A stretch of 35,824 bases of DNA from a virus. This document shows positions 16,201-35,824 of this stretch, piece by piece; position 1 is the stretch's first letter, and each line of letters opens with the position of its first letter. The position numbers and the translations under genes are program-made. The notes below the pieces were generated by a model. It worked only from the letters and a program-made list of their open reading frames with translations, did no database searches and had not been told where the DNA came from. The stretch covers positions 1 through 35,824 of IMG/VR virus record IMGVR_UViG_3300046010_013789. The stretch is one strand, 5' to 3'.

Positions 16201-18096
16201 AGGATAAGAATATACAACGGCATCTGTATTGTATAGTTGATTAAAGTTGATATAATTTTTATTTATAGTGTTGTTCTTATATCTGTTTTGAATCTCATAA
16301 TCAAAATTATCATTATAGAGATTTAATTTATAAATCTCATCATCAACGCCGAAACAACGAATGAAATTTCTAAAAGCTTTCTCGTTGCCTTTGCTCTTTA
16401 AAATATAAGGTAGATTGTTATAAATATTTTGAAAAATTCTATTTTTTATTTGTTCAAAATCTTTTTCAAATAACTGTTTTTCATCTCTTGATAAGTATCT
16501 ATTAAAAAGTTCAATGTCGGCAAACAAATTAACAACTGGAAAACCAGCATTCTCTAATGCTTGAGCATAAAAATTATGTGGTTTATTTAATTCCTCTGTA
16601 TAATCTATATGTTTTATTTTTGGTAAAAATTGAATTTGTAAATACAGTTGGTCTAAATAACTTGCCATTATTTGTGTTAGCTTTCGTAACACAAATCCAT
16701 TTTGTGAATCTTCATCCCAAATAAATGCTGGAAGTTTTCCATATAAACTACCATTGTTTGAATAATCGTGCGTTCTTCCTTGAGCCATTTTGGTTTCTTT
16801 GAAAGAAGCAAGAGTTGGGTTATCTAAATAAATTATTGGATCTTTTGGCTCTGAAAACCCTGCGCTGTCTATAGCTGAACCAGTTTCTCTTGAGCTTGAA
16901 GAATATCCAACAAAAGTTCCATCGTTCTGTCTGCCAGAATAATCTAAAACTCTTGCATCTATTGAAGAATTTCCAACTATTCCTTCATTAAATTTAAAAT
17001 GAACGCCAAGATCAATATTGGCATCGTCTGTATTTGTACCGTCGCCAATTTCAGAAGTTAGATAATATCTGCCAATTTGTTTAGCATTTCTTCTGGTGTT
17101 CCAGAATCTAAATTCATCAATAGAACCAGACAACTTACCAGTGCCAAGTGGAACATCGCCAGCGGTCAAATATGAAGGACCGCCCATAGCGCCTATTGTG
17201 CATAAAGCAGAACCAGTAAAATCAATAATGGTTCCAGCATATGTTTTTGTTTCTTTATATACTCCATCAAGATAAAATTCGGATGTATATCCAGCAGATG
17301 AACTATAATATGTAAAAGCGTAATGGTGCCAATTAGAATCAGCGATAGTAGCCAATCCAGTATTGTATTCAAAATCGAATCTTAAATTAATGCCAGCGCC
17401 AGTTGAGTACTCTGCTTTAATGGTGTTTGTGCTACCATTTTCCAAATACAAAGTGAAATAATTTCTTGCCGAAGAACCAGTTGCTTTTGAATAAAAAATA
17501 ACTTCAGCCGTTGTTTGTGCAAATGATGGATATGCATTCTTTTTCATCCAGAATTCTATTGTAGAACCAGTTGAAAAAATAAATCTTGTGTTTTCTCTTC
17601 TTTTGGCTGATGGTTCATATACGTTTTCAATCTTATTATCTACAGCGCGATTGAAAAATTTTATATATTCTTTATTTTGTGGCACTCCAACGCCGACATA
17701 CGAAGAATCTTGAGTTCCCCATCCGCCAGATGCAAAGTTAACAAAACCTGTTGTTTTTGGATATTCATTATCAAAAATATAAAGATCTAATAAAGTTGAA
17801 CCATTTCTCCATTCTTTTTTCTCTTTTAAAGAACCATCAAATGGATATAAATTAATAACTCTATCAATTGAATCTTCATAATATTGCTCTGCAAGACCAA
17901 ACTTCGCAAAATTTGATGCAGTAGCGTAATTTACTGGTGGTATAAATCTGGTAAAATCTTTGTTAGATTCTTTAACAAATTCATAAGATTCAACATCTAA
18001 TGTTCCAGAATCAAAAGAAGTTAAATTCTGAAAATTGACTGTCGTTAAATTATTTTTCTTCTTTTGTTCCGCGTTAAAAATATCTTTTAAGCTCAT
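10213..18096 (-). CDS. Giant baseplate-associated protein with LamG/concanavalin-like domain (2627 aa)
   Basis: This is the largest gene in the window. Residues about 170-345 form a LamG/concanavalin A-like jelly-roll: EFWMKK, then SNWHHYAFTYY near 254-264, EFYLDGVY near 273-280 and GSIDEFRFWN near 334-343. This fold commonly binds glycans. Around residues 555-575 a helical segment (NNLPYILKSKGNEKAFRNF) resembles helices I associate with contractile-tail wedge proteins. A further helical block at about 1000-1150 precedes a very long Ser/Thr/Gly/Asn-rich beta-type region. There is no transmembrane helix or signal peptide. It follows gp6 and the DNRLRE-type gene, so it occupies roughly the position of T4 gp7, but homology to gp7 is inference. 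Its ATG overlaps the upstream stop as ATGA and its stop overlaps the next start as TAATG. Confidence 0.65.
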   Translation of the reverse strand: MSLKDIFNAEQKKKNNLTTVNFQNLTSFDSGTLDVESYEFVKESNKDFTRFIPPVNYATASNFAKFGLAEQYYEDSIDRVINLYPFDGSLKEKKEWRNGSTLLDLYIFDNEYPKTTGFVNFASGGWGTQDSSYVGVGVPQNKEYIKFFNRAVDNKIENVYEPSAKRRENTRFIFSTGSTIEFWMKKNAYPSFAQTTAEVIFYSKATGSSARNYFTLYLENGSTNTIKAEYSTGAGINLRFDFEYNTGLATIADSNWHHYAFTYYSSSAGYTSEFYLDGVYKETKTYAGTIIDFTGSALCTIGAMGGPSYLTAGDVPLGTGKLSGSIDEFRFWNTRRNAKQIGRYYLTSEIGDGTNTDDANIDLGVHFKFNEGIVGNSSIDARVLDYSGRQNDGTFVGYSSSSRETGSAIDSAGFSEPKDPIIYLDNPTLASFKETKMAQGRTHDYSNNGSLYGKLPAFIWDEDSQNGFVLRKLTQIMASYLDQLYLQIQFLPKIKHIDYTEELNKPHNFYAQALENAGFPVVNLFADIELFNRYLSRDEKQLFEKDFEQIKNRIFQNIYNNLPYILKSKGNEKAFRNFIRCFGVDDEIYKLNLYNDNFDYEIQNRYKNNTINKNYINFNQLYNTDAVVYSYPDASNASSVGFISGTFDSTKIEENIANTYEIDVVFPQKPPINDPRHVEYSAVSASIFGVVTADSNNPTDTTIPANNLCNFELYAVRPESLSQNAYFVLKSSYSSSTAADNFVIQTNTIKQLYTDQRWNFAVRIVPQGYDLSDRAAVTSPTNYTLELYGVSVIGDYKVQEITASTTIGYDRGLALLSKPRRLYVGSTRTNVTGALLVGSDIKATSTKVWFDYLDNDTIYNNAIQANVDGNELPYKSAYVGQTQLNGVFIPKIDTLAVNWSFNQVYSSSVGGQFTVIDNSSGSAAQGTQRYGILGGIIKAQHAGRGDHFANDTKIVFKEYLPVLTKRLPEQVSPDDTVQILTQDDLVFTKESRPIRTFISIERSMYQTISEEMMKLMSSISQFSNFVGERQNQYRHEYKDMGKLRSLFFESIGNTPDLDKYVEYYKWLDVSLNKVIQTLFPASADVSEEVNTMIESHVLERSKYKWKFPTMEFKPVDLEAGLNTINKHLYNWKYGHAPIPLQEITSSLWWNKRAERNGPVLSSSNAGVNNDKTLILSASYQTLNRSFTTAQRFAADESKYFMGGTNLKNKKFDYYKPNKQSISVEVSNNVLAPNTTDYADLSTKFDIQSVVSVDGYKSRFALPFSYYVANKNAISGSIQNISTNKLDVYGPHYEIPLQGPFTEKYVGGNFHRHQQLFSSGSNRAEAYIISGSGTTTTISNPFLSNINQARSDFYRDGTAKRPVNIKNIAQTTGSTIIGNYDKKYHFFQTSDRNVNNFFFTSNNGIDSTGRADPYVSGNLAWTLPTRTRTETVFVERFSAPGDPLVMSEGALDAKSAQYSVYNALPFRNLNVRNALKTLLTIPSTAGGYQSGSSTTASFHKVPKNGYSNIAGSTNNDNFWIQHPIPQCDLKYKWIFDSATATSSCDSYSFTSASSLAKTDGSQLLQPVVYTDSNFYVIDPINTASNLLGIDGGNISSYINSGNGYYSLSSPGAFSALITKRNAGYGYPSWLQIRTSNHPLARVFKENNILSTVEPKKTNITPFRGGAIQSVSVDTITNYTETPMAENYPVKYNFVIENYKNGVLQTSNTPLKISYSNVKEYFNNIELNDKYINSNDLPKLAYDQVQELIKTKDSYSPIKSVEGFSYKEKLFPRKVNAYRGIVRGRTSYEETQSQKDSQDVVARRTFWKDNITDRRRTLGSLNSQGNTFFSITSQLTSSVYSLDYDFVSETYGELLKKTTYVLLPSYISGNHLVTASALYSAFTPSAVSFANKVISDSGINPFYDSYDDYSNDIRTIGKDYSVVPEFRISDHIPYFTAGGDLNFNSKILENFLKLDGASISASNQQDFYKVYSHTDFINNYATFESDLSETELSNSDKKIKIKLSAVKKLLPYNGFYPSNRLLQLAQLFSSSFSGTTIGGWQSGVYSSASYSGSSNYAPFFSLFFSPGIIFNTIKSGIAVDFPAHTGTVLSSSITFTEGVLKAPDYRVKFESCISLNKSNLVSNQPIGYAGNGGLFVSASWNGNKNNSLYELASNNFFGESIKFFLSGESTQTIASSKESEFDVLDENKTYYMDITLYKSNNFIMHEGPTSGGGKLAGAPYGPMYDPGTGGTFEDPSYASATPPYFYGNSSVRLSFKPSETRKYKLSEIFAGLTSSYSNSFGDVRQLPVVTGSAALSSVMRIDASINLLGAATLKQVVYRPDLTPLEIFDQTSDSGYDTWVISPKFETPIYNYRDKVTSGYSTGMWINYKGDQGNDDEGIFLEISDPFPQIRGVNNSTTGSLIDVLKFDKNKSSKKLGQVAETKEISEAIVAIPIDRNGNRYQISADTFKLLQNPDLVNAAKPFNPKPSRTLIDMYETMQKYVFPPHLDFVNNKSVRPFGMYIFEFTHTLTKSDLGKIWQGVMPEIATKMELDEQSIEHSFGPGEIFDRNFDDQTRWIVFKVKKKAENSYYNSVIGASQDTRFDFEFQIGNEKVSAQKSILPYSYNWPYDFFSLVELAKIDAEVTYKKKE

Positions 18097-23284: not shown

Positions 23285-26200
23285 TTAATCCTCGTCAAAA
23301 TATATTAATTCTTTTACATCAATCAGGACTTTTTCGTCATTATAACTTTCTCCTGTAAATTGATTAATTTCGAGAATATATTGGTCTTTTATTTGTATGG
23401 TTGCATTAAGGGCAAAAGAATCAAACGGCGATTGCCAATAACTTATTGTATTGTCTTCAAGTTTAAATAATACAGATTGTACATTATCTTTAGAAACTGA
23501 ATCGGAAATTATAGATTTCATTGAAAGATTTAAGTTAGAAATTGAATTATTAACTAATGCATCGTATTCAGAATTTTTTACAGAAACAAGGTATGGAATA
23601 TTTATAGAACCATTAACATATTGAAATATTGGTTCAACTGAAGTTGGATTGCCATTAGATTTTTGTTTAAACAATATATTTTTATTTTGAATTGTCAATG
23701 TTCCCAAAGGAGAACTATAAAAAACGTCTGTAGATCCAAGATTTGTCTTGGCGTAATTTTTATTAACAAAATTGACAATTTGTATTGCATTCGCAAATAA
23801 TTCAAATTTATAAGAATCCATGAATGACGCAAATGAATTTGACATGTTTTCAAGCTGTTTATTTATTTTATTTTTAACAATATCGGCAACTGGATAAGTG
23901 TGGTTTTCTTCTTTTAAGGAAACATTGTTATAGACGCCATTTTCAGAAATATTTTGTAATTCTTTATACTTTTCTTGTTGTTGTTTCCTTGTATTTTCTA
24001 TTATTTGATTTGCTTGTTCTTCTGTGAAGCCTTTATTAATCAGTTCTGTTCTTTTATTAGCAACATAATATTCTGAAAAATTAAAACATTTTTCACTATC
24101 ATCATCAACAGCCGTATTTGAATTTTCTAAATTATCTAAATAATTTTTACAATCAAAATCAAGGTTTTTATCAATAATAGATAAATTAATGAAGAATGAT
24201 TTTACAGCAAAAACACTAGATAAGGGGATTGAAGAAGCCACGCTTGAATTTAAAATAATTGGCGATTCTGAATATAATTTATAATGACGAACTTTTATAA
24301 ATTGCAATACTTCTTCAAGAAAATCGCTATCGGCAGAACCATTAAATAATGAACATACTTCTTCGTTTGTAAAAAAATTAAATAAATCATCCAATAAATC
24401 ATTTATATCCGAATTATCTCCAGATGTAAAAGTGGGTGGTGAAGAATTAATTGGATTAAGGTTTTTGTTGCTATTTTTATCTTTTTTACACGCGCTTACT
24501 TCAGATAATAAACTTTTTACTATTTGAATCGCAGCTTCTTTTAAAAGCCTCTCGGCTTCTCTTTCTGCTTGTTGTTGTAAAAGAATCCAAGCATTTCTTC
24601 TGGCAGTAGAAAGAAAGTTTCTTCCTTTTTTCTTTAATGCATCTCTAGCGCCGGGATTGTTTTTGTACAACTTGGCTTCTCTTACTAAAAGCGCATATTG
24701 TTCTTTTATTATTTGCCTAGCTTGTTTTGATGCTATATATGTTTCTATTAATTTATTTAATTCTTGATTTGAATTATAAAAAGTATCTAAGCACTTAATT
24801 AAAGTTGTAGAAACAAAATCTACATCAGTTGCTTTTTCAAAAACTTCTTTGAATACGGCAACAAGTTCTTCTAATATTTTTTTATACACAGAATCATCAA
24901 ATTTAAATTCGCCCGATATGTCTGGAATTGAAGGAAGAACAATCGCGCCAAATGAAGCTGGAAGGGGGAACCCAGTACATTGAATTGCCTTAACAACATT
25001 TGGATCTTTAAGATTGAGAAATTTAACTAAATTTTCTATAAAACTAGTTAATGCCAATAATTCTTCGTTAAGTAAAGGATTGTTCTGTAAATAACATTCT
25101 ATAGCTTCGTCTACTATATCTTTTAAATCAAATCTATAAAGTATATTTTCATATAGCTGTTTTAAGCTGCGAATATCTTGTAAAATATCTTTTATATTTT
25201 GTAATATTGTTTTTTTACTAAAATTATTTTTTTCAATATTTTTTCTTATATTTGAAAAGATAACTACATTCTTAAAATCGTTAACAAATGCTCTCTGAAA
25301 ATTCATTTGAGCTTGAGTCATAAAAGTATCAAATGGAAACTGTTCATCTTTTTTGAACTTGGTTTTCTCATATACTAATTTTGAAAAAAAGCTTTTTGGC
25401 ACATAATTTGCTGATGAATTAAAAATATTTTTTGAATTTACAAATAAATAAGCAGAAATATCAGAATCAATATTTAAAGATGATGGTACATATTCTTTAC
25501 TATCGCTAACTTTAAAATTTACCAAAGTTAGATTTGTTTGACCATCAACATATTTTTCTAAACAAAGATTATAAGCAGCCAAATTTGCATTATTAACTTC
25601 TGAATTTGGTGTTGAAGGAGCTAACTCGCATTTATTTCTTTTAAATTGAAAAGTGAATTTTGATTTTGCGTCAATTTTTTGTTCGTTGATTTTGTCAGTA
25701 AAATTAGAAATAAACTGATCAATATTATTTAAATAATAATTTATATCATAATTTTCTATTACAAATTTAGAATCTTCTAGAGATTTTAATTTCTTTTCTA
25801 TTGCACTTCTAAGGCTTTTTACGCTTTTTTGAACATCTTCTAAATTATCAAAAGTTGCTATATCATTGATCGCAAATTCTTTTAGATCTGTGGCTACTGA
25901 CAAATTTGGGAACTTATCAATGTAATATTTTGGAATTCCCAAAACAACGCTAGGATTACCATCTGCATCTACAGGCAAATAATTATAGAATATAGAAAGC
26001 CCATTTTTTAAAGAACTTTTATCAAAAAGAATTTCTCCAATAACAGTTGCTTCAGTGGCTGATGGTTTTCCGAAATTATTTAAAGAATCAAAAAATAATA
26101 TTATGTTATTTTCAAGTTGTAATAATGTATCAACAAATTGTTTTTCAAAGTTGACATTAACTTTTTCATAAGTTGCCTTACTTTGGTCAGTGATCTGTTC

Positions 26201-26830
26201 CGATTGTTTTATCCAACTACCTTTTTTATTTAAAGATTTTAAAATATTATCAATTCCATTTTGAATAAAGCCTTGATTCTCAGAAACTTGAAAATAATAT
26301 AGATACCAATCTTTAAATTTTTCTGGAACTGGAGCTAGAGTGCTTCTCTTATTTAGAATATTTTTATCATTTGGAGCCAACTTTTTAGATAGATCCGAAA
26401 ATAATCTTGTGTTTATTGTTTCTTTAATAGAAATAAATTCAAACTCTTCTTTTATAGAAACATCTTCATCTTTTGGTTCTAGGCTTATTTTACCGCTAAG
26501 TTCAACGTAATAATAAATTCTTCTAAATTTATTCAGATATTCTGGTTTAATGCCCTCTCCCTGAATTTTACTTATAAAATAATTTTCTTTTTGAACAGAC
26601 GAAATTGATTCAGGGTTAAATCTAGAATTAAGAAATGAATTTAATTTATTTTTTAAATTTATTATTATTGATGGATCGTAAGAATTTATTAAATCTCTTT
26701 TATATTCTGGCAAAAAAGATCCATCAACTTCTTCAGCAGCAAAAAATACTTTGTTCTCATTTAAACTAAGAACAATATCTGGGTTTCCAGCTTTTTGAAA
26801 CGTATTAATTATTTGTTGCTGTATCGCCAT
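23285..26830 (-). CDS. Unrecognised large baseplate/hub-region protein (1181 aa)
   Basis: No family is recognised. The protein starts MAIQQQIINTFQKAGNPDIV. It is Lys/Asn/Ser/Phe-rich and lacks a signal peptide or clear membrane helix. A strongly helical, charged stretch lies at about residues 695-775 and includes ARQIIKEQYALLVREAK and QQQAEREAERLLKEAA. A second Gln/Glu-rich helical patch lies around 928-957. These could be coiled coils for oligomerisation. The C-terminal part looks beta-rich. It lies between the spike-like gene and the wedge genes, so a hub or hub-to-wedge connector is plausible by position only. The upstream stop TAG carries an AGGA 12 bases before the ATG, a long spacing for a ribosome binding site. 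Confidence 0.45.
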   Translation of the reverse strand: MAIQQQIINTFQKAGNPDIVLSLNENKVFFAAEEVDGSFLPEYKRDLINSYDPSIIINLKNKLNSFLNSRFNPESISSVQKENYFISKIQGEGIKPEYLNKFRRIYYYVELSGKISLEPKDEDVSIKEEFEFISIKETINTRLFSDLSKKLAPNDKNILNKRSTLAPVPEKFKDWYLYYFQVSENQGFIQNGIDNILKSLNKKGSWIKQSEQITDQSKATYEKVNVNFEKQFVDTLLQLENNIILFFDSLNNFGKPSATEATVIGEILFDKSSLKNGLSIFYNYLPVDADGNPSVVLGIPKYYIDKFPNLSVATDLKEFAINDIATFDNLEDVQKSVKSLRSAIEKKLKSLEDSKFVIENYDINYYLNNIDQFISNFTDKINEQKIDAKSKFTFQFKRNKCELAPSTPNSEVNNANLAAYNLCLEKYVDGQTNLTLVNFKVSDSKEYVPSSLNIDSDISAYLFVNSKNIFNSSANYVPKSFFSKLVYEKTKFKKDEQFPFDTFMTQAQMNFQRAFVNDFKNVVIFSNIRKNIEKNNFSKKTILQNIKDILQDIRSLKQLYENILYRFDLKDIVDEAIECYLQNNPLLNEELLALTSFIENLVKFLNLKDPNVVKAIQCTGFPLPASFGAIVLPSIPDISGEFKFDDSVYKKILEELVAVFKEVFEKATDVDFVSTTLIKCLDTFYNSNQELNKLIETYIASKQARQIIKEQYALLVREAKLYKNNPGARDALKKKGRNFLSTARRNAWILLQQQAEREAERLLKEAAIQIVKSLLSEVSACKKDKNSNKNLNPINSSPPTFTSGDNSDINDLLDDLFNFFTNEEVCSLFNGSADSDFLEEVLQFIKVRHYKLYSESPIILNSSVASSIPLSSVFAVKSFFINLSIIDKNLDFDCKNYLDNLENSNTAVDDDSEKCFNFSEYYVANKRTELINKGFTEEQANQIIENTRKQQQEKYKELQNISENGVYNNVSLKEENHTYPVADIVKNKINKQLENMSNSFASFMDSYKFELFANAIQIVNFVNKNYAKTNLGSTDVFYSSPLGTLTIQNKNILFKQKSNGNPTSVEPIFQYVNGSINIPYLVSVKNSEYDALVNNSISNLNLSMKSIISDSVSKDNVQSVLFKLEDNTISYWQSPFDSFALNATIQIKDQYILEINQFTGESYNDEKVLIDVKELIYFDED

Positions 26831-27710: not shown

Positions 27711-29000
27711 TTAAAACGGTTTTGGTGGTGGCGGTGGTGGAATGTTGCCTTCCTTTTTTCTTTTTAAATATTCACTTAACACTGATTTGCTTTTATTTGC
27801 TCTAGTTTTTATGGTAGCATTTTTTGCTGCCTGAAATTCTTCTTGAGTGGACGGAGGTTTTGGCGGCTTCAATCTTGCTCTAAACCTATCATATGTTTTT
27901 TTATTAGTGGTTGCTGGGGCTTCAAATCTAAGCAACACTTGCGTACTAGCTCCTTCTACTGTTTTTGTTTGTCTTAAGCCTTTTAACATATAATTTTCAA
28001 ATCTGTTTTTTACTTCCCAAACTAAAAATGCAAAATTCATTTCATTAGTTGCGCTTTCTTTTGTTATATCAAACCCATTAAAATTATCTTTGACATAATT
28101 TATGAAATTGTCTTTTCGTCCTCTAGTCGTCCATTGCGCCCAACCATATCCTCCAAATCTTTTCATTGGCAATAAAATTCCAAAACGACCTTCAACTATA
28201 CCCGGATTAAAGCCGCCTTCCGATAAAAGATTTCCAACAATTCCAGCAGCTTGAAAATCTTTAAGTTTTAAATCGCGAATTAATCCGTCTATGACCCAGA
28301 ATTTTGTATTAGGATCTGGTATATATGGTTTTGGATATCCGGGTGGGTCAGGATCATTTAAAGATGCTTTTTTGCCACCACCTTTTTTTGTTGTTTTGCC
28401 AGTGCTACCCTCGCCGCCTCCACCGACTTTTCCTGATTCTTTGGCTGGAGTAACTTGTGGCGTCGAAGGACCAGCTTGTGGTTCTGGTGGACCAATAATC
28501 TTGGTTGTTTGTTGCACATCAATTAATTTCGGAGGCATCGCAGGCAAAGTTATATCTTTAATCGCAGTTGCACGATCACCTATTTGTGGTTTTAAAGTAA
28601 TTTTATTTTCATCATATATAACTTTATTACCGCCAATACCAATTGCCGCGCAGGCAACAGCCATATTATAGGTATTTTTTTCAGAACCATCGCCTTTTGA
28701 TAAATTTAAAATATTGGTTCCAGCAGGCGGCAATTCTGAATTATGCCCTGAATGGAATTCTATAACTTTTTTATACTTTGATGAAACATCGGTTTCTGGC
28801 GAAACATGATTGTCGGAAGTTAAAAATGGCATAGCCTTTGGATCTATATCAATCGGGTCAATGGCTACAAGATTATCAGTTGCAATAGAAATAGTTTGTT
28901 TTGCCGCTGGCATCGTTGGCGCAAAATTTTGTGCATTACCAGCAGCCGCTGCTTGCCTGTATCTTGTCGATCCACGATCCGCAGAAAACGTCTTAGACAT
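27711..29000 (-). CDS. Tail lysozyme / peptidoglycan hydrolase (429 aa)
   Basis: The protein probably cleaves peptidoglycan locally during injection. Residues about 232-380 match the phage tail lysozyme pattern (Phage_lysozyme2-type). They include DFQAAGIVGNLLSEGGFNPG (residues 238-257 region) with a Glu following NLLS that fits the catalytic acid, then GGYGWAQWTTRGR, matching the family's 'G-x-A-Q-W-x-x-x-R'. The N-terminal 150 residues are a separate domain, without signal peptide, that may dock to the hub. A Pro/Gly/Lys-rich linker at about 170-232, including KVGGGGEG, joins the two. The last residues are a six-proline run, IPPPPPPKPF. AGGA lies ten bases before ATG. The spike-like gene follows, consistent with a split counterpart of T4 gp5. 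Confidence 0.75.
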   Translation of the reverse strand: MSKTFSADRGSTRYRQAAAAGNAQNFAPTMPAAKQTISIATDNLVAIDPIDIDPKAMPFLTSDNHVSPETDVSSKYKKVIEFHSGHNSELPPAGTNILNLSKGDGSEKNTYNMAVACAAIGIGGNKVIYDENKITLKPQIGDRATAIKDITLPAMPPKLIDVQQTTKIIGPPEPQAGPSTPQVTPAKESGKVGGGGEGSTGKTTKKGGGKKASLNDPDPPGYPKPYIPDPNTKFWVIDGLIRDLKLKDFQAAGIVGNLLSEGGFNPGIVEGRFGILLPMKRFGGYGWAQWTTRGRKDNFINYVKDNFNGFDITKESATNEMNFAFLVWEVKNRFENYMLKGLRQTKTVEGASTQVLLRFEAPATTNKKTYDRFRARLKPPKPPSTQEEFQAAKNATIKTRANKSKSVLSEYLKRKKEGNIPPPPPPKPF

Positions 29001-29003
29001 TCA

Positions 29004-29285
29004 TTACAAATCCTTCTGTTCCTTGATCATATCATAGAGGCTATTCTTATCAATTTTGTCTTCTTTAGATTCTTTCTTCTCCAAAAGGGTTATGATCTTT
29101 ACAAGTTGTTCATTTGAGCGCTGAAGCGTTTCAACATATTTGGCAGCAGTTTGACCAGCCATAGCATGACTCGTTTTATTGTTTAATATGTCATCTCTTA
29201 ATTCATACAACAGGTCTGAAGTTACTTCACGATCTGTGCGAAGATTTGTTAAGGCTTCCTCTAATAAAGCATTTTTATCTTTCAT
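29004..29285 (-). CDS. Small helical phage protein (93 aa), function unknown
   Basis: The protein is almost wholly helical and charged. AGQTAAKYVETLQRSNEQLV at about residues 43-62 is the most distinctive stretch, and the C-terminal third is Lys/Glu-rich. There is no membrane segment or cysteine motif. The ATG overlaps the sigma gene stop as ATGA, so it is translated with the late sigma factor and could be a transcription partner or an assembly protein. In T4 the coactivator gp33 works with gp55, but no sequence link to gp33 is seen. Confidence 0.5.
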   Translation of the reverse strand: MKDKNALLEEALTNLRTDREVTSDLLYELRDDILNNKTSHAMAGQTAAKYVETLQRSNEQLVKIITLLEKKESKEDKIDKNSLYDMIKEQKDL

Positions 29286-29944
29286 ACTCTATCTTCCCAA
29301 CCCTGTTTAAACTCAATATATTTTATTCTAATTTTATTTAAGCTTGAGGTAATCTGCTTAGAGTTTAAACCAGTAATTTCTCTCATATAAATATAAATAG
29401 CCTTCTTGTTAAAAATTTCAATATTATCTTTGTTGTGAAGTATTTGTTTTACAGATTCAAGGATCTTCAGGTCTTGTTCTTTTAATGAACTGCCCCAAGT
29501 ATCAATATCTTTTAATAGATCATTCCAAAATTGTTCCTGCTCTTGTCTTTCATGAAAATCATTCACAACCATGTGCTGCTTTTCAACTTCAACAGCAGAA
29601 TCTTCAAAAGATATTTCACTAGTCAAATTCTTATTATTGCTTTTAACTTTGTGAATAAACCAATTCTTTGTGATAACTGAGAAATAAGAAAACGCTTTGT
29701 ATCCTTTGCTTGGATCATACTTTTCTAGAATTGTTGTTAACCAAAACTTACACTCTTCTCTCAAACTATCAATATTTGGGAGATTTGTGAACTTATAAGT
29801 ATAAATAATTTTATCCACCATCTCATTAAAAGCTGGAGCTATATATGTTTCATATAGCAATTCCTTTTCTCTTTTATTTGTGGTGGAGCAGTATTCTATT
29901 ACTGCTTTTTCGTGTTCTGATGAAAAATAATATTTGTTTGACAT
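29282..29944 (-). CDS. gp55: Late RNA polymerase sigma factor, T4 gp55-like (220 aa)
   Basis: gp55-type sigma factors redirect host RNA polymerase to TATAAATA-type late promoters. Residues 41-101 match region 2 of sigma-70 proteins in the phage style: EMVDKIIYTYKF, then NLPNIDSLREECKFWL, then EKYDPSKGYKAFSYFSVITK, then NWFIHKV. A C-terminal segment near 190-215 (YMREITGLNSKQITSSLNKI) looks like a helix-turn-helix. A TTG 36 bases upstream would add 12 residues inside the preceding gene. The ATG at 29944 is chosen because it follows the upstream TAG by one base and has GGGAG 12 bases before it. The gene precedes the baseplate module it presumably helps express. Confidence 0.85.
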   Translation of the reverse strand: MSNKYYFSSEHEKAVIEYCSTTNKREKELLYETYIAPAFNEMVDKIIYTYKFTNLPNIDSLREECKFWLTTILEKYDPSKGYKAFSYFSVITKNWFIHKVKSNNKNLTSEISFEDSAVEVEKQHMVVNDFHERQEQEQFWNDLLKDIDTWGSSLKEQDLKILESVKQILHNKDNIEIFNKKAIYIYMREITGLNSKQITSSLNKIRIKYIEFKQGWEDRV

Positions 29945-29945
29945 T

Positions 29946-30245
29946 CTATTTGTTGTCTCCCTTTTCCTCGGGGATCTCAACTAAAAATGCATCATTAAAT
30001 TCTTTTATATCATTAATTATTTCTTTTGTGTGTTTTAACAAACTTTCCAAAGTTGAATCGCCATAAAATGTTGGAGCTTGATAAGTTTGTTGCAAGTGCA
30101 TTGAATACACCTCCAACAATCCTTTTAAGTCATCAATATTTTCTGCAAATTGTCGTGATTTATTTAAAAGGTGTTTGCAATATCTGTATAAAACTATTGA
30201 TATACCTAATAATAAGGCGACTAACGCCCCTAAAAATCCTTCCAT
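29946..30245 (-). CDS. Small single-pass membrane protein (99 aa), unknown function
   Basis: Residues 4-20 (FLGALVALLLGISIVLY) form one clear transmembrane helix at the N-terminus, followed by a basic RYCKHLLNKSR anchor and a soluble helical domain. That domain contains FYGDSTLESLLKHTKEI at about 61-77, a pattern I recall from small proteins of large myophages. The tail is acidic. There is no lipobox and no second helix, so nothing points to a holin or spanin. The ATG shares a base with the zinc-ribbon gene stop (TAATG), and the sigma gene starts one base after its own stop. A membrane role during late infection is possible but not shown. Confidence 0.6.
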   Translation of the reverse strand: MEGFLGALVALLLGISIVLYRYCKHLLNKSRQFAENIDDLKGLLEVYSMHLQQTYQAPTFYGDSTLESLLKHTKEIINDIKEFNDAFLVEIPEEKGDNK

Positions 30246-30691: not shown

Positions 30692-31054
30692 TTAATCTCC
30701 TTTTTGTATTCTGTAGCTATCATCTTCAAAATGTTGTGTTGAGAATTCAAACAATTCTGTATCTTCTATGGCTATCATTTGGTGTCTTAAACCAGTTGGT
30801 ACATGAAAAGAGTCGCCGGGATAAAGTACAGTGCTGTCTGACTTTTCCAAGTCGTCTTCGAATGAAAATTTTACAAGAATCTTTCCAGATTGAATATAAA
30901 ATACTTCATCCTTTATCTTGTGATAATGCCAAGAACATTTTTTATTTTTTTTAAAAACTAAAATCTTACCACAATATTCTTTTTTATTTACAATCCACTT
31001 TTCATATCCCCATCCTTTATGATGGATTTCTGGTACTTGAAAAAAATTGCCCAT
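30692..31054 (-). CDS. Metal-binding cupin, sugar-cassette enzyme or sensor (120 aa)
   Basis: This is a single-domain cupin. Motif 1 gives W-H-Y-H-K with His43, His45 and Glu50, followed by a Gly (QSG). Motif 2 gives PGDSFHVPTGLRHQM with His91. All four usual metal ligands are present. Relatives include phosphomannose-isomerase C-terminal domains and small sugar isomerases or epimerases, so the substrate is probably a sugar or sugar nucleotide. It is shorter than RmlC-type 3,5-epimerases (about 180 residues). An in-frame ATG at 31078 exists, but the ATG at 31054 has GGAG six bases upstream and is preferred. The first 38 bases overlap the end of the HAD gene in another frame. Confidence 0.8.
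   Translation of the reverse strand: MGNFFQVPEIHHKGWGYEKWIVNKKEYCGKILVFKKNKKCSWHYHKIKDEVFYIQSGKILVKFSFEDDLEKSDSTVLYPGDSFHVPTGLRHQMIAIEDTELFEFSTQHFEDDSYRIQKGD
30697..30700 (-). promoter_or_regulatory. Ribosome binding site deciding the 60-aa start
   Basis: GGAG on the minus strand, six bases before the ATG at 30690, supports the short form over the in-frame ATG at 30750. Confidence 0.7.
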
Positions 31055-31361
31055 CTTTAACTCCTTTATCGTCCACATAAAAATCCGCAGAGGGTTTTCC
31101 TAAAATTAACTCATGATATTTTAAATCCCATGATTTTAATTGATTCTGCGTAAAAGAATAATATTTATTAATTGCATAAAGTTGGTTATTTTTACTTGAA
31201 CCCATGCCTCTGGCAGTGAACATAATTATATGATGACCCTGTTCATATAGTTCATTTATTTTTGAGATTCTTTCACGATAAGGCGAAGCTTGTTCATAAT
31301 TTCCATATGTATTATTACATATAGTCCCATCTATATCAAAAACATATGTCGTTTTTACCAT
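31017..31361 (-). CDS. HAD-superfamily capsule-biosynthesis-type phosphatase (114 aa)
   Basis: This is a short HAD hydrolase of the EcbF/BcbF capsule-phosphatase type. Motif I is VFDIDGTICN (Asp9 nucleophile, Asp11), motif II is MFTARGMG (Thr49), the Lys of motif III is in LGKPSADFY (Lys89), and motif IV is the DD pair at 97-98. There is no cap domain, consistent with a small, possibly oligomeric sugar-phosphate phosphatase. Its neighbours are the heptose kinase/adenylyltransferase pair and a 4,6-dehydratase. A heptose bisphosphate phosphatase step (GmhB is also a HAD) would fit, but the substrate is unknown. The start overlaps the dehydratase stop by seven bases and AAGGA lies nine bases upstream. 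The end overlaps the cupin gene by 38 bases. Confidence 0.8.
   Translation of the reverse strand: MVKTTYVFDIDGTICNNTYGNYEQASPYRERISKINELYEQGHHIIMFTARGMGSSKNNQLYAINKYYSFTQNQLKSWDLKYHELILGKPSADFYVDDKGVKDGQFFSSTRNPS
31061..31064 (-). promoter_or_regulatory. Ribosome binding site deciding the cupin start
   Basis: GGAG on the minus strand, six bases before the ATG at 31054 and inside the HAD coding sequence, favours this start over the ATG at 31078. Confidence 0.7.
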
Positions 31362-32305
31362 CTAAATTTTTCCTTATAATAAAAAACAATTTTTTCTATT
31401 TCTTCATCAAAAATTTTATTAGGCTTCCATCCTAATTTTCTAATTTTTTCATCATTCAAAGAATATCTAATATCCTGTCCTTTTCTTACATATGAAAGAT
31501 CCACATATTTTTCAAATTCTTTGTCAGTTCCATAAAAATGTTTTATAATTTTTTTGATTGTTGTTTTATTATCTTGTTCTAAATCTCCAGAAATATTATA
31601 TATTTCATTTTTAACATCAGATTCAATTATTTTTATGACAGCGTTTGATGTATCTTCAGAATGTAACCAAACACGAACTGGAGTGCCTTTTTCATGAAGC
31701 CTCATTTTTTTTCCTCTCGTGAATAGTTTAATGGTGAGAGGAATTAATTTTTCTGGATACTGACCTATTCCGTAATTATTTGTTGGTCTTATTATTATAT
31801 AATTTATACTATGTGTTCTTGACCATCCAAGAACTAACATATCTGCTGCTGCTTTAGAAGCCGAATATGGATTACTAGGTTTCAAAATATCACTCTCGGT
31901 GTGAGAGCCACTTTTTATGTCTCCATATACTTCGTCTGTGCTAAATTGTATAAATATGGGTCTTTCGGCTACATTTTCTGATTTATTTTTAATTAAATTT
32001 AGAAGATTTTGTACGCCTAAAATGTTTGTGTTAATAAAATCATTACTGTTTATTATACTATTTTCTACATGCGATTCGGCAGCTAAATTAATAACATAAT
32101 CACAATCTGGCAAAAATTTTAACTTACTTATATCTTCTTTTATAAAAGAAAAATTTTTATTTTTATTAAATTCTTCTAAAAATTCAATATTCGCAGCATA
32201 AGTCTGGTCATCAATCCCGAGGACTTTCCATCCTTTTTCGAGGCATTTTCTTGTTAAATAAGAGCCTATTAAACCCAAACATCCTGTAATAACAACTAAT
32301 TTCAT
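31355..32305 (-). CDS. rmlB: NAD-dependent nucleotide-sugar 4,6-dehydratase (dTDP-glucose dehydratase type)
   Basis: This is an extended short-chain dehydrogenase. The Rossmann motif is TGCLGLIG (7-14), with AAESHVE at 75-81. The active-site STDEVYG at 122-128 carries the Asp-Glu pair of RmlB-type dehydratases, the YxxxK pair is Tyr147/Lys151, and NNYG and PEKLIP follow at 176-189. GDP-mannose dehydratases usually have S-E in place of D-E, so the dTDP-glucose type fits better. The enzyme oxidises C4 and removes water across C5-C6 to give a 4-keto-6-deoxy sugar. At 316 residues it is somewhat shorter than bacterial RmlB (about 350). It lies directly after the heptose adenylyltransferase (AGG six bases before the ATG), so its real substrate could be a nucleotide heptose. 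The substrate is uncertain. Confidence 0.85.
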   Translation of the reverse strand: MKLVVITGCLGLIGSYLTRKCLEKGWKVLGIDDQTYAANIEFLEEFNKNKNFSFIKEDISKLKFLPDCDYVINLAAESHVENSIINSNDFINTNILGVQNLLNLIKNKSENVAERPIFIQFSTDEVYGDIKSGSHTESDILKPSNPYSASKAAADMLVLGWSRTHSINYIIIRPTNNYGIGQYPEKLIPLTIKLFTRGKKMRLHEKGTPVRVWLHSEDTSNAVIKIIESDVKNEIYNISGDLEQDNKTTIKKIIKHFYGTDKEFEKYVDLSYVRKGQDIRYSLNDEKIRKLGWKPNKIFDEEIEKIVFYYKEKFRW

Positions 32306-32307
32306 AA

Positions 32308-32715
32308 TTAACCTATCTTTTCTAAAATATTTGTTGTTGATATTCCATCTATATAATCAAAAATTCGAACTTCAGCTAAATCATTACCAATTACTTTTTC
32401 TATTTTATAATCTCCACCTTTTATAATTATATCTGGTTTTATTAATTTTATTAAGTCATAAGGGGTATCTTCATTAAAAATTACTACCTCATCCACATAT
32501 TTTATTGATTTTAAAATGTTCAATCTGTCTTGTTGATTATTTATTGGTCTTTTATCGCCCTTAAGTCTTTTAACGCTTTCATCGCTATTAAGACCAACTA
32601 TTACAAAATCGCCCTGTTGTTTGCAAAATTCTAAAAGTTTTATATGACCAATATGTAGTATATCAAAACAACCATTAGTAAAAACTGTTTTACCTCTACA
32701 GCAATTAATTTTCAT
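32308..32715 (-). CDS. rfaE2: Heptose-1-phosphate adenylyltransferase domain protein (RfaE2/HldE-C type, 135 aa)
   Basis: This is a nucleotidyltransferase of the cytidylyltransferase-like family that activates heptose 1-phosphate with a nucleotide, usually ADP-heptose in LPS synthesis. The signature TNGCFDILHIGHIKLL at about 13-28 has HxGH as His21-Ile-Gly-His24. GLNSDESVKRLKG follows at 41-53, then KGGDY at 99-103, and the C-terminal GISTTNI typical of the RfaE branch. The length fits a stand-alone HldC. A longer frame reaches 32757, but the ATG at 32715 overlaps the kinase stop as ATGA and has GGAG ten bases upstream. Kinase and transferase are thus adjacent, coupled genes rather than the fused HldE of many enterobacteria. 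Confidence 0.88.
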   Translation of the reverse strand: MKINCCRGKTVFTNGCFDILHIGHIKLLEFCKQQGDFVIVGLNSDESVKRLKGDKRPINNQQDRLNILKSIKYVDEVVIFNEDTPYDLIKLIKPDIIIKGGDYKIEKVIGNDLAEVRIFDYIDGISTTNILEKIG

Positions 32716-33455
32716 ATTGTTACTACTCCTTGTTTTTGAACAACAATTGTAGCACATTTATTTGCAAATTCAATAGCTTTATCTATATCATTACTTTTAC
32801 AATATTCTATAGATAAAGCAGCCAAAAAAGTATCTCCAGCGCCAGATGTATCTTTAATTTCTACTTTCTCAACTGGATATGTTTTTTCTCTATACACGCA
32901 CCCATATGGTCCTTTGGTTACTATGAGATTACAGTTATTTAATTTCAAATATTCTAATGAATTCTTATATTCAACATTATTAACTTTTATAAAAGTAAAA
33001 TTTTTACTCCATTCTGAAATTTTTCTCTTCGTATCTATGAAAGTACATTTATGTTTTTTGGAAATCATTTCTAATATTTCATTAGACAAAAATCCTTTAT
33101 TATAATCAGATATAACAACTGCTTCATAATCTTGAAAATTTATATTTTTAATATCTTCTAATGTTAATTTGCCGTAGTTATCATCATTTTCGTCTAGACG
33201 TAAAAACATATGATTTGATTTTTCTTCTACATATCTTGTCTTTTTAATATCATGCCAGTTTTTATTTGTTACTATATCTACAATTATATTAGTAGATATT
33301 TTTTTCATGTTTAATTCAACATTTTTAGCCATGCCACCATTTTTTACAATTTTAGTTGATTTAAAGACTGGAACTGGTGCATCTGGGCATAATCTATCAC
33401 AAGTGCCATAGTGATATATATCTGAACAGCTTTCGCCAATTATCAAAATTTTCAT
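32712..33455 (-). CDS. rfaE1: Heptose-7-phosphate kinase, PfkB/RfaE1 type (247 aa)
   Basis: This is a ribokinase/PfkB family sugar kinase of the HldE N-domain branch. DRLCPDAPVPV at 20-30 corresponds to the family's 'R-x-S-P-E-A-P-V-P-V'. NGGMAKNV at 39-46 corresponds to 'GGAANV', ISDYNKG is at 115-121, and DTSGAGDTF at 202-210 carries the catalytic Asp208 and anion hole. It would phosphorylate C1 of a heptose 7-phosphate. It is shorter than the roughly 318-residue HldE kinase domain. The loss lies mainly in the segment after GGAANV and in the region before the ATP-binding half, while catalytic motifs remain. AAGGA lies six bases before the ATG. The stop overlaps the adenylyltransferase start (ATGA), placing two consecutive steps in one translational unit. 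Confidence 0.87.
   Translation of the reverse strand: MKILIIGESCSDIYHYGTCDRLCPDAPVPVFKSTKIVKNGGMAKNVELNMKKISTNIIVDIVTNKNWHDIKKTRYVEEKSNHMFLRLDENDDNYGKLTLEDIKNINFQDYEAVVISDYNKGFLSNEILEMISKKHKCTFIDTKRKISEWSKNFTFIKVNNVEYKNSLEYLKLNNCNLIVTKGPYGCVYREKTYPVEKVEIKDTSGAGDTFLAALSIEYCKSNDIDKAIEFANKCATIVVQKQGVVTI
32726..32729 (-). promoter_or_regulatory. Ribosome binding site deciding the rfaE2 start
   Basis: GGAG on the minus strand, ten bases before the ATG at 32715, supports that start over the in-frame ATG at 32757. Confidence 0.6.
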
Positions 33456-33478
33456 TTTAGATCCTTAAAAAATTTATT

Positions 33479-34417
33479 TTATTTTCTTGTATTATTATAG
33501 TTCTCAACAAACCAATTATACGATCTTTCAAGAGATTCTTCAAGATTTGTAAATCTAAAATTTGGCAAAGTAGCATAAAATAATTCTTTATTTGATTTTC
33601 TTCTTTTTTGCCCATTAGGTTTAGAAGTATCCCACAATACTTTGTGATAATCCGCAACTTCACATAGCTTATCAACCATTTCTTTTATTGAATGTTCATT
33701 ATCGCCAGATACAATAAGTTTTTTTGGCATCTGTTGTTCAGAAGATAAAAGTTTTAAACAAACCAACGCTAAATCTTTAGAGTAAATAAACTCTCTAATT
33801 GATGAACCATCCCCCCAGCAAATTAATTCTTTATTTTCTTTTTTGGCTAAATAAAGCTTATGAATAAGGCTAGGAATGACATGACCATCTTCAAGGTTAT
33901 AATTGTCATTTTCGCCAAATATGTTGCTTGGAATTACTGAACAGTAATTTAAATCACCATATTGTTTAGTATATGCCAGTATTTGAACGTCTGCCATTCT
34001 TTTAGCATATGCATATGCAAAATGAGCATCAAATGGTGGAGAATTATGCATAATATCTTCAGATAGATATTCTGAATCCGCTGGGAATACACAAGCTGAT
34101 GAAAAAACAATTAATTTTTGTACATTATTCAAAAAAGAACTATGTATTATATTTGTATTCATGAGAATGTTATCTCTAAACTGTTGAGCTGGCGTATTTA
34201 AGTTTCTTCCAATCCCGCCAACTCTTGCAGCGGCATGAATAACATAATCTGGCTTTATTTTATCAAATAATTTTGAAACTTCTTCTTCTTTTGTTAAATC
34301 AGCGTCTTCTCTACCAACGTAAAAAAACAAAAAATCATTAAATTCAGAACTCAAAGACACATTTTTAATAGCGTTTCCAACCAAGCCATGCCCGCCAGTA
34401 ACTAATATTTTTTTCAT
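33479..34417 (-). CDS. fcl: GDP-L-fucose-synthase-type epimerase/reductase (312 aa)
   Basis: This is a short-chain dehydrogenase of the Fcl/WcaG family. E. coli Fcl epimerises C3 and C5 of GDP-4-keto-6-deoxymannose and reduces C4 with NADPH. The nucleotide motif is TGGHGLVG (7-14), and AARVGGIGRN near 62-71 is typical. The active site SSACVFP gives Ser107 and Cys109, the YxxxK pair is Tyr135/Lys139, and the acid His179 sits in DGHVIPS. WGDGSSIREFIY follows. Numbering of Ser107, Cys109 and His179 coincides with E. coli Fcl, so catalysis looks intact. No GDP-mannose 4,6-dehydratase of the Gmd type is in the window, so the 4-keto substrate comes from elsewhere or from the RmlB-type enzyme two genes on. 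AAGGAG is six bases before the ATG. Confidence 0.88.
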   Translation of the reverse strand: MKKILVTGGHGLVGNAIKNVSLSSEFNDFLFFYVGREDADLTKEEEVSKLFDKIKPDYVIHAAARVGGIGRNLNTPAQQFRDNILMNTNIIHSSFLNNVQKLIVFSSACVFPADSEYLSEDIMHNSPPFDAHFAYAYAKRMADVQILAYTKQYGDLNYCSVIPSNIFGENDNYNLEDGHVIPSLIHKLYLAKKENKELICWGDGSSIREFIYSKDLALVCLKLLSSEQQMPKKLIVSGDNEHSIKEMVDKLCEVADYHKVLWDTSKPNGQKRRKSNKELFYATLPNFRFTNLEESLERSYNWFVENYNNTRK

Positions 34418-34427
34418 TTATTTCTCC

Positions 34428-34976
34428 TTATTTAATTGCTTCTATGTTTAAGCTCATTAACGAACCATTATTTTTATCCATATGTGGCAAATATGATTGG
34501 CTATAATCATCAACATAAAAATGCTCTGTTTTTTTCCAGTCATATTTTTTTACTTCTTTAAAACCAATTTCTAATAAATCTCTTTTTAGGGAGGCAAAAT
34601 CCCAGCAATTGTAATGAAAATCAAAATCATATTTTTGACCACCATATAATAAATGGATTATCTCATCTAAATTAGAAGTTTGTAAGTATCTTTTACATGC
34701 AGATTCAAAATCTGGAACTGCTATTCTTAAAACACCGCCTATTTTAAGAGCTTTATACCAATCTTCAACTACTTGTTTCCAAGTTATATTTTGAAAACAA
34801 TTTGGTTTAAAAGGAAAATGTTCCAAAACATGACAAGCATAAATTAATTCAATATTACTGTATTTTTCACTAATTTTTCTAATATCACAAACAATATCAG
34901 GATCACATTCTGACCTTGCATCAATATTTATAAAACCATGTATTTTTCTATTTCCACATCCTAAATTTAATTTCAT
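34428..34976 (-). CDS. Class I SAM-dependent methyltransferase (182 aa)
   Basis: This is a Rossmann-fold methyltransferase. Motif I is LNLGCGNRKIHGFINIDA (3-20), ending in the acidic residue that holds SAM ribose. D-I-V-C-D-I-R follows, and ACHVLEHF at 47-54 is the motif-IV-like segment common in sugar and lipid methyltransferases. GGVLRIAVPD lies near 89-98. It resembles small methyltransferases of glycan clusters. Its place between a glycosyltransferase-like gene and a sugar reductase suggests methylation of a sugar or glycan end. The acceptor is unknown. The start is four bases after the previous gene's last sense codon (TAAAATG), with AAGGAG 11 bases upstream. Confidence 0.82.
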   Translation of the reverse strand: MKLNLGCGNRKIHGFINIDARSECDPDIVCDIRKISEKYSNIELIYACHVLEHFPFKPNCFQNITWKQVVEDWYKALKIGGVLRIAVPDFESACKRYLQTSNLDEIIHLLYGGQKYDFDFHYNCWDFASLKRDLLEIGFKEVKKYDWKKTEHFYVDDYSQSYLPHMDKNNGSLMSLNIEAIK

Positions 34977-34977
34977 T

Positions 34978-35748
34978 TTATCCGAATCTCCTTCGCCAAA
35001 TTGTTGGACTTTTATTCCAATTAAAATAATCTATTTTTATAGGTCTTTCTAAATAAGAATTAGGTTCTTTATATATTTGTTGAAATAAGGCCAAATCATT
35101 TTGTTCGTATGCCTGCTGAACCGGGATATGATCGCCTTGATTTGGATTCCAATCATGATTGCAGACATACATATCAGATTCATATATTTTACCACCATCA
35201 TTTTGTAATCTAAAAGATAAATCATGAGTATTCATATTTAAATGCTCAAATCTGCAATCCCATCCTCCAAGTTCTCTAAAATATTCCAGCTTAAACATAC
35301 CAACCATTAAAATTTTATAATGCTCTGGAACTACTCTTAGGGTTGGATGATGATGAGCCATCCAATAATCATGATGCATTGGTGATCCTTGATAATTTCT
35401 GCCTTCTGTGTATCTAAGCGCAATAGCATCTTTATACCCCAAAAGTTCGTGTTTTTCTATACATGCTGCGATAGAATTATTTGTAAAAATCCCATCATCA
35501 GAACCCCACATCATTAATTCTCCTTCTGCTATAGAAGCTGCTATCAACCCACATCTAGATGGAGAACCATAATCTTTTATATATTTAAAATTTGTTTTGT
35601 CATTAAAAAAAGGAGGTGGGTCATTTGGTCCAACCATAATTAATTGCCAAGAATGTTCTCCTACAGAAGACACAATAGATTGATAAAAATTCTCCCATAA
35701 ATGAGTTCTGATAGCTGGTAGACATATTGATAGTTTATAATTATGCAT
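34978..35748 (-). CDS. Family-2-like (GT-A) glycosyltransferase (256 aa)
   Basis: This is probably a GT-A glycosyltransferase. It opens with the strand LSICLPAIRTHLWENFYQSI, similar to the start of family 2 enzymes. Residues 78-88 contain ELMMWGSDDGI, whose Asp-Asp fits the DxD-type metal/nucleotide site. MFKLEYFRELGGWD near 151-164 matches the usual acceptor-side 'F..lGGwd' segment, and NTHDLSFRLQNDGGKIY holds the later acidic region. There is no membrane anchor. The C-terminus ends WNKSPTIWRRRFG, a pattern repeated at the end of the partial gene upstream. The ribosome binding site AGAGG sits in the end of that gene. Donor and acceptor are unknown; the neighbours suggest a modified heptose or deoxy sugar. 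Confidence 0.72.
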   Translation of the reverse strand: MHNYKLSICLPAIRTHLWENFYQSIVSSVGEHSWQLIMVGPNDPPPFFNDKTNFKYIKDYGSPSRCGLIAASIAEGELMMWGSDDGIFTNNSIAACIEKHELLGYKDAIALRYTEGRNYQGSPMHHDYWMAHHHPTLRVVPEHYKILMVGMFKLEYFRELGGWDCRFEHLNMNTHDLSFRLQNDGGKIYESDMYVCNHDWNPNQGDHIPVQQAYEQNDLALFQQIYKEPNSYLERPIKIDYFNWNKSPTIWRRRFG

Positions 35749-35749
35749 A

Positions 35750-35824
35750 TTATCCTCTTTTAAATCTTCTTTCCCAAATTTGGGGAAATTTTTTCCATTG
35801 TTCTTTTTCGATAGTTATCTCCAC
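35750..35824 (-). CDS. Partial CDS, C-terminus of a second glycosyltransferase-like protein
   Basis: An open frame enters from the right edge and stops at TAA (35752-35750), one base before the ATG of the complete glycosyltransferase-like gene. The 24 visible residues end KEQWKKFPQIWERRFKRG. They resemble the end of the next gene product (WNKSPTIWRRRFG), sharing W-x-K-x-P-x-I-W-x-R-R-F. This suggests tandem paralogues. Only the tail is present, so the function is inferred from that match alone. Confidence 0.6.
   Translation of the reverse strand: MEITIEKEQWKKFPQIWERRFKRG

Follow-up and report, generated by a model that had tools for sequence, protein, structure and literature searches.

Heptose synthesis begins at sedoheptulose-7-phosphate and requires an isomerase, usually GmhA, an enzyme of the SIS fold. 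The IMG/VR virus record IMGVR_UViG_3300046010_013789 (positions 1 to 35,824, the whole of which was analysed and is called the window here) raises the question of which protein could take this first step in a phage. Its minus-strand end carries a sugar cassette of eight genes and the 3′ part of a ninth, which overlap or are separated by gaps of at most 23 bases; an HldA-like kinase, an HldC-like nucleotidyltransferase, a HAD phosphatase and a small cupin are among them. From the comparison of sequences and gene neighbourhoods we consider it quite probable that the metal-dependent family of this cupin performs the isomerisation of sedoheptulose-7-phosphate. In hundreds of phages from marine and fresh waters, as well as in ultra-small archaea and bacteria, it would have taken the place of GmhA. 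As the cupin would take the GmhA slot, the phage probably encodes the whole route from sedoheptulose-7-phosphate to ADP-heptose in four enzymes, and would carry a separate deoxy-sugar module beside it.

GmhA was absent from 20/20 phage records carrying the module, three complete cyanophage genomes (P-SSM2, P-TIM68 and S-SM2) included, and no SIS-fold GmhA was found in the relatives of the window. The window is a fragment, so that other sugar genes, even GmhA, may lie beyond it; a search for a larger assembly of its genome returned the 35.8 kb virus record alone. A scan of prokaryote genomes detected the cupin family in metagenome-assembled genomes (MAGs) of small archaea and bacteria. Cellular members include fusions of the cupin with full-length heptose kinases (L066, L082, L084, which is Woesearchaeotal, L120, L121, L127 and L128) and a single protein with the order GmhB–cupin–HldC (L085). 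Equivalent fusions exist for GmhA, namely kinase–GmhA in L118 and L119 and GmhA–kinase in G346. The same exchange is seen in otherwise identical operons, which read cupin–HldD–HldA–(GmhB–HldC) in L114 and L115 and GmhA–HldD–HldA–(GmhB–HldC) in L116 and L117.

The two isomerase genes were counted in two phyla. In the phylum of G011 (194 genomes), a strong heptose kinase was present in 41 genomes, of which 13 carried the cupin, 21 GmhA, seven neither and none both. In that of G009 (192 genomes), the 14 genomes with a heptose kinase were divided between the cupin (four) and GmhA (ten), none having both or neither. Over the 55 kinase-bearing genomes of the two phyla, the cupin is found in 17 and GmhA in 31, with no genome carrying the pair. 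In the cyanophage SynMITS9220M01, for which heptose genes including a phosphoheptose isomerase have been reported (PMC7378029), the cupin is flanked by an HddA-like GHMP kinase and an HddC-like nucleoside triphosphate transferase. These two belong to superfamilies unrelated to those of the HldA-like kinase and HldC-like transferase, and the cupin therefore also fits a GDP-type route, its step being common to both. The heptose clusters of this phage lie at L295 4964-6967 (HddA–cupin–HddC) and L300 423-1873 (HddA–GmhA).

The cupin is encoded by at least 588 IMG/VR stretches. The protein of the window has 128 amino acids, with a likely start at 31054 (M9), and matched the Cupin_1, Cupin_2 and Lyx_isomer profiles only. 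The motif HxHx4E was present in 45/45 aligned members, and H51, H53, E58 and H99 were invariant in all 45. The protein thus shares with the phosphomannose/lyxose isomerase type a cupin fold in which four residues serve as metal ligands. The predicted model (predicted local distance difference test, pLDDT, 94.3) was aligned using VIA-align with 7zvy, 7zvm and 7nzo at Z of about 15, and its top PDB matches include D-lyxose isomerases bound to D-mannose or D-fructose and archaeal phosphomannose isomerases. It is solely from the replacement of GmhA that we infer an aldose–ketose isomerase.

In the proposed route, the cupin would convert sedoheptulose-7-phosphate to D-glycero-D-manno-heptose-7-phosphate, the kinase would form the 1,7-bisphosphate and the HAD phosphatase, in the role of GmhB, would yield heptose 1-phosphate; the nucleotidyltransferase would then produce ADP-heptose. 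The three steps after the cupin are placed in the order of the known HldE pathway. The kinase scored under the TIGR02198 equivalog cut-off of 345 bits. Its best PDB profile match was the heptose 7-phosphate kinase 4e84 (154 bits), and it conserves SDYxKG as well as the GAGD and NxxE motifs of HldA-type PfkB kinases in the ADP-heptose pathway. A start at 32715, where the gene overlaps the stop of the kinase, is probable for the nucleotidyltransferase, whose open reading frame (ORF) is extendable to 32757. Its HIGH (the motif looked for in HldC-type enzymes), KGGDY and STTNI motifs align with E. coli HldE, and since it is HldC-like (TIGR02199, 173 bits) ADP is expected as the nucleotide. The HAD protein, with intact DxDGT, TAR and K..DD motifs, matched the capsule phosphatase 9iqw in the PDB, and in viral contig L011 it forms a fusion with the nucleotidyltransferase. 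These three genes and the cupin form a core common to cyanophages and many IMG/VR contigs: of 55 viral loci with the cupin and a length above 14.5 kb, 35 contained all four and 47 at least two.

Several points weigh against giving the cupin the role of GmhA. The mutual exclusion, summed over both phyla, has a Fisher's exact p of about 5e-9, a value that ignores shared ancestry, and the genomes counted are MAGs of unstated completeness. The score limits, set after the lists had been inspected, were 200 bits (first phylum) or E<=1e-40 (second phylum) for the kinase, 140 bits for GmhA and 95 bits for the cupin. Even so, both phyla give the same picture, and the exchanges within operons are direct. 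Genome G008 has a distant GmhA-like SIS protein (117 bits) in addition to the cupin operon, and G072 has one of 87 bits; the second cluster of SynMITS9220M01 holds an HddA-like kinase with a weak GmhA (47 bits), so that cupin and GmhA coexist in this phage, in separate clusters. Members of the cupin family also adjoin Gmd where no heptose kinase is present, as in the phage loci L139, L141 and L260 and in MAGs of Binatota-like and Deltaproteobacteria type. CapF, oxalate decarboxylase and KdgF match the cupin fold equally well, and the fold alone is for this reason indecisive on function. The phage kinase is also shortened, by about 65 residues relative to HldA domains.

The remaining sugar enzymes are an RmlB-like and an Fcl-like member of the short-chain dehydrogenase/reductases (SDRs). 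The best PDB match of the dehydratase was 2hun, of the dTDP-glucose dehydratase type (230 bits), and the solved GDP-heptose 4,6-dehydratase 7us5 gave 38 bits. When the protein was aligned to RfbB of E. coli and to sequences from the PDB, TDE and YxxxK were recognised, in agreement with the [ST]DE/YxxxK pattern of RmlB; neither the [ST]SE motif nor the family similarity of GMD was found. In the motif table for 4,6-dehydratases (PMC8987622), a DE couple is set beside the SE of GMD and the DK of CDP-glucose enzymes. CDP-glucose dehydratase, which the RfbH neighbours had suggested, was not adopted on account of the DE couple. Across the clade PxY(224)G is changed to KxHD-type residues, RDW to RNW or RVW and GHD to GQD, and the score lies below the RmlB equivalog cut-off. 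Tyr224 of RmlB, within the PxYG segment, stacks on the sugar (PMC9415975); with this segment lost across the clade, the substrate is uncertain and need not be dTDP-glucose.

Linkage of the dehydratase clade was sampled in 80 viral loci, 49 of them long. An RfbH-family protein, with a representative above its NCBIfam cut-off, was the commonest immediate upstream neighbour (36/80). A tight linkage with the heptose core was rejected, at least two core genes being present in just 14 of the 49 long loci. Among related phages, Gmd-like and RmlB-like dehydratases alternate in the position after the cupin. The Fcl-like reductase matched human GDP-fucose synthase in the PDB (263 bits) and, aligned with Fcl of E. 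coli, keeps C109, H179 and YxxxK. Its orthologues in L149, L153 and L168, the three closest relatives, have Gmd next to them and, further on, a pyridoxal phosphate (PLP) enzyme in which the 3-dehydrase His replaces Lys. Because their neighbours are RfbH and Gmd more than heptose genes, the two SDRs seem to belong to a deoxy-sugar module of mosaic make-up, separate from the heptose core. Loci of the same dehydratase clade (L209-L288) also form islands rich in RfbH-like 3-dehydrases, acetolactate-synthase-like thiamine pyrophosphate enzymes, split transketolases, NeuB and PseF, in which phages probably make branched, dideoxy and nonulosonic sugars.

The original prediction had drawn another route through these enzymes, in which the dehydratase and the Fcl-like reductase act on a nucleotide heptose and the cupin is a C3/C5 epimerase, giving a 6-deoxyheptose as with MlghB and MlghC of Campylobacter. 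The enzyme classes do adjoin within the window, and both the clade-wide change of the PxYG segment and the alternation of Gmd-like with RmlB-like dehydratases would agree with this. Nevertheless, the cupin has an HxHx4E...H metal site, was not matched to E. coli RfbC by phmmer and takes the place of GmhA in clusters devoid of a dehydratase, while the epimerase site of MlghB is of the metal-free RmlC type (His/Lys/Asn/Tyr/Tyr/Asp; PMC7949155). The catalytic couple is DE and not the SE of GMD, the transferase is of the HldC (ADP) kind, the reductase orthologues precede a canonical Gmd and the PLP enzyme, and the dehydratase keeps company with RfbH more than with the heptose core. The original prediction had itself named hexose-type affinities of the dehydratase and reductase as evidence against it, and by scores, motifs and neighbourhoods both enzymes largely have them. 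We therefore retain from it a nucleotide-activated heptose route, which is well supported, drop the analogy with Campylobacter and the RmlC-type cupin, and regard a 6-deoxyheptose product as improbable.

Slightly less improbable, yet still unlikely, is that the cupin isomerises sugar phosphates broadly or has another one as its substrate, for instance as a mannose-6-phosphate isomerase feeding GDP-mannose, in a phage that uses the GmhA of its host for heptose. Since members adjoin Gmd without a heptose kinase in cells and phages, some of them may act on mannose-6-phosphate, which has the same manno configuration, and phosphomannose and lyxose isomerases are among the closest structures. Against this stand the fusions of the cupin to heptose kinase and to GmhB/HldC, its exchange with GmhA in operons and the mutual exclusion in two phyla; an enzyme with both activities would still agree with a sedoheptulose-7-phosphate isomerase. 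That the cassette is packaging filler or decaying cargo, as has been raised for the lipopolysaccharide (LPS) clusters of cyanophages, appears very improbable. Sullivan et al. (2010; PMC3037559) left a lack of function possible there, and the deoxy-sugar part looks incomplete in the window, where neither Gmd nor RfbH is visible. However, all cassette frames are intact with their catalytic residues retained, the cupin is 57-71% identical to most other phage members, and the four core genes remain together across diverse viruses. The arrangement is seen again in many independent viral contigs and is thus not due to chance.

The preferred reading, with the cupin as candidate isomerase, is summarized gene by gene in Table 1. 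The packing of eight genes and an edge fragment on one strand, upstream of a sigma-like gene, is as originally described, on the minus strand. In transcription order they encode the glycosyltransferase fragment, glycosyltransferase, methyltransferase, Fcl-like SDR, short PfkB kinase, HldC-like nucleotidyltransferase, RmlB-like SDR, HAD protein and cupin. Profile searches back each class except the glycosyltransferase, and so bear out the enzyme classes first assigned to the kinase (PfkB/RfaE_dom_I), nucleotidyltransferase (RfaE_dom_II), 4,6-dehydratase and reductase (RmlB-like and Fcl-like), HAD (EcbF/BcbF-like) and cupin (Cupin_2).

Table 1. Cassette genes and the sigma-like gene of the window.
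Feature	Position	Strand	Support
Metal-site cupin (T4-GC307/phrog_7851 family), proposed sedoheptulose-7-phosphate isomerase replacing GmhA	30692..31078	-	phrog_7851 1.8e-55
HAD phosphatase (EcbF/BcbF-like, T4-GC306), proposed heptose-1,7-bisphosphate phosphatase (GmhB role)	31017..31361	-	TIGR01689 5e-12
RmlB-type nucleoside diphosphate-sugar 4,6-dehydratase	31355..32305	-	TIGR01181 289 bits, cut-off 365
HldC-like nucleotidyltransferase (T4-GC304), proposed heptose-1-phosphate adenylyltransferase	32308..32715	-	TIGR02199 173.4 bits, cut-off 181.5
Short PfkB-family heptose-7-phosphate kinase (HldA-like, T4-GC305)	32712..33455	-	TIGR02198 1.8e-34
Fcl-like epimerase/reductase	33479..34417	-	NF047922 (GDPFucSynFcl) 207 bits, cut-off 500
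Small S-adenosylmethionine methyltransferase-like protein	34428..34976	-	phrog_6636 7.8e-5 (weak), LNLGCG motif
GT-A fold glycosyltransferase	34978..35748	-	AlphaFold2 pLDDT 88.5, no Pfam match
3′ end of second, paralogous glycosyltransferase, cut by window edge	35750..35824	-	longer in L005 3-539
Sigma-like late transcription factor (context, downstream of cassette)	29282..29980	-	phrog_234 1.7e-5

The methyltransferase and glycosyltransferases of the original prediction stand less firmly, the former on a weak match and a motif and the latter on a predicted model, with RmlT rhamnosyltransferase and WrtF fucosyltransferase as best Foldseek matches (E of about 1e-10). The edge fragment proved to be a second glycosyltransferase, about 35% identical to the first, which can be read further in contig L005; this contig (16 kb) is almost identical to the window and extends 464 bases further upstream. 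Methyltransferase and glycosyltransferase co-occur in L149, L153, L162 and L168. These enzymes may transfer the sugars to a glycan of the virion or the host surface and modify them there.

Downstream, the order cupin–o80–zn86–m99–sigma is kept in the relatives of the window. The window also has T4-type baseplate genes and a phage tail lysozyme domain, and its virus is a distant, non-cyanophage-like T4-type virus. The baseplate protein is 33-34% identical to those of Microcystis and Flavobacterium phages, and at such identities no host was assigned from it. Very large ORFs without a PHROG match lie among the tail genes at 2225-5665, 5700-9242 and 23285-26830 (1146, 1180 and 1181 amino acids), and a further very large one spans 10213-18096 (2627 amino acids). 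The tail lysozyme gene (27711-29000) is 85% identical to that of L005 (7289-8956), with 429 and 555 amino acids, respectively, in otherwise nearly identical contigs.

Neither the heptose pathway nor its presence in cyanophages is new. In the open-licence literature we found nothing relevant linking a cupin with gmhA or sedoheptulose-7-phosphate isomerase and nothing on Woesearchaeota with heptose, and as far as this literature was searched the cupin isomerase is new. It would supply the missing first step of phage heptose synthesis and provide a phage protein that is widespread and now labelled 'cysteine dioxygenase' or 'nucleotidyltransferase' with a function open to test. In two cellular phyla or more, GmhA, thought basic to heptose synthesis, would have given way to a protein of unrelated fold, and whether the cyanophage 'LPS' clusters are functional becomes a question answerable through one enzyme. 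Some annotations conflict with the sequence family: in the cyanophage RefSeq records L001 (12410-13091), L002 (11663-12432) and L003 (19616-20282) the HAD gene is labelled 'phosphoheptose isomerase', and the cupin bears the two labels just quoted. In Binatota/Deltaproteobacteria-type MAGs (L048, L049, L052, L056, L057 and L063) the cupin has a strong Gmd as its partner and lacks a heptose kinase in the vicinity, and some cellular cupin–Gmd loci have uninformative neighbours (NusG, a family 4 glycosyltransferase and TldD). Phage islands in L231 (14677-16945), L243 (9242-11501) and L251 (13860-16313) contain a GmhA-like SIS gene with Fcl and Gmd directly after it, without a PfkB kinase; a GDP-heptose route is possible there.

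Compared with the Gram-negative ADP-heptose pathway (GmhA, HldE, GmhB and HldD), the kinase and nucleotidyltransferase of the window are homologues of the HldE domains with conserved motifs, whereas a cupin stands for GmhA, a minimal EcbF/BcbF-like HAD for GmhB, the kinase is shortened and no HldD lies within the window. The GDP-6-deoxyheptose pathways of Campylobacter (DdahA-C and MlghA-C; PMC7949155) likewise combine SDRs, a cupin-fold protein and a nucleotide heptose, but are GDP-based, with an RmlC-type epimerase cupin and a GMD-like dehydratase. The archaeal cupin phosphomannose isomerases (7zvm and 7zvy) and D-lyxose isomerases (7nzo and 2y0o) share the fold and carry out manno-configured aldose–ketose isomerisation, yet are just 21-24% identical to the window cupin and differ in gene context and substrate. 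The nearest counterpart is found in cyanophages, in which T4-GC 304, 305, 307 and 308 co-occur as 'LPS genes' whose functionality was left undecided (Sullivan et al., 2010; PMC3037559). Their T4-GC 304-308 genes (P-SSM2, S-SM2, S-SSM7 and P-TIM68) include the same nucleotidyltransferase, kinase, HAD and cupin families, likewise clustered, and add an HldD-like SDR (T4-GC308), in place of which the window has its RmlB-like and Fcl-like SDRs.

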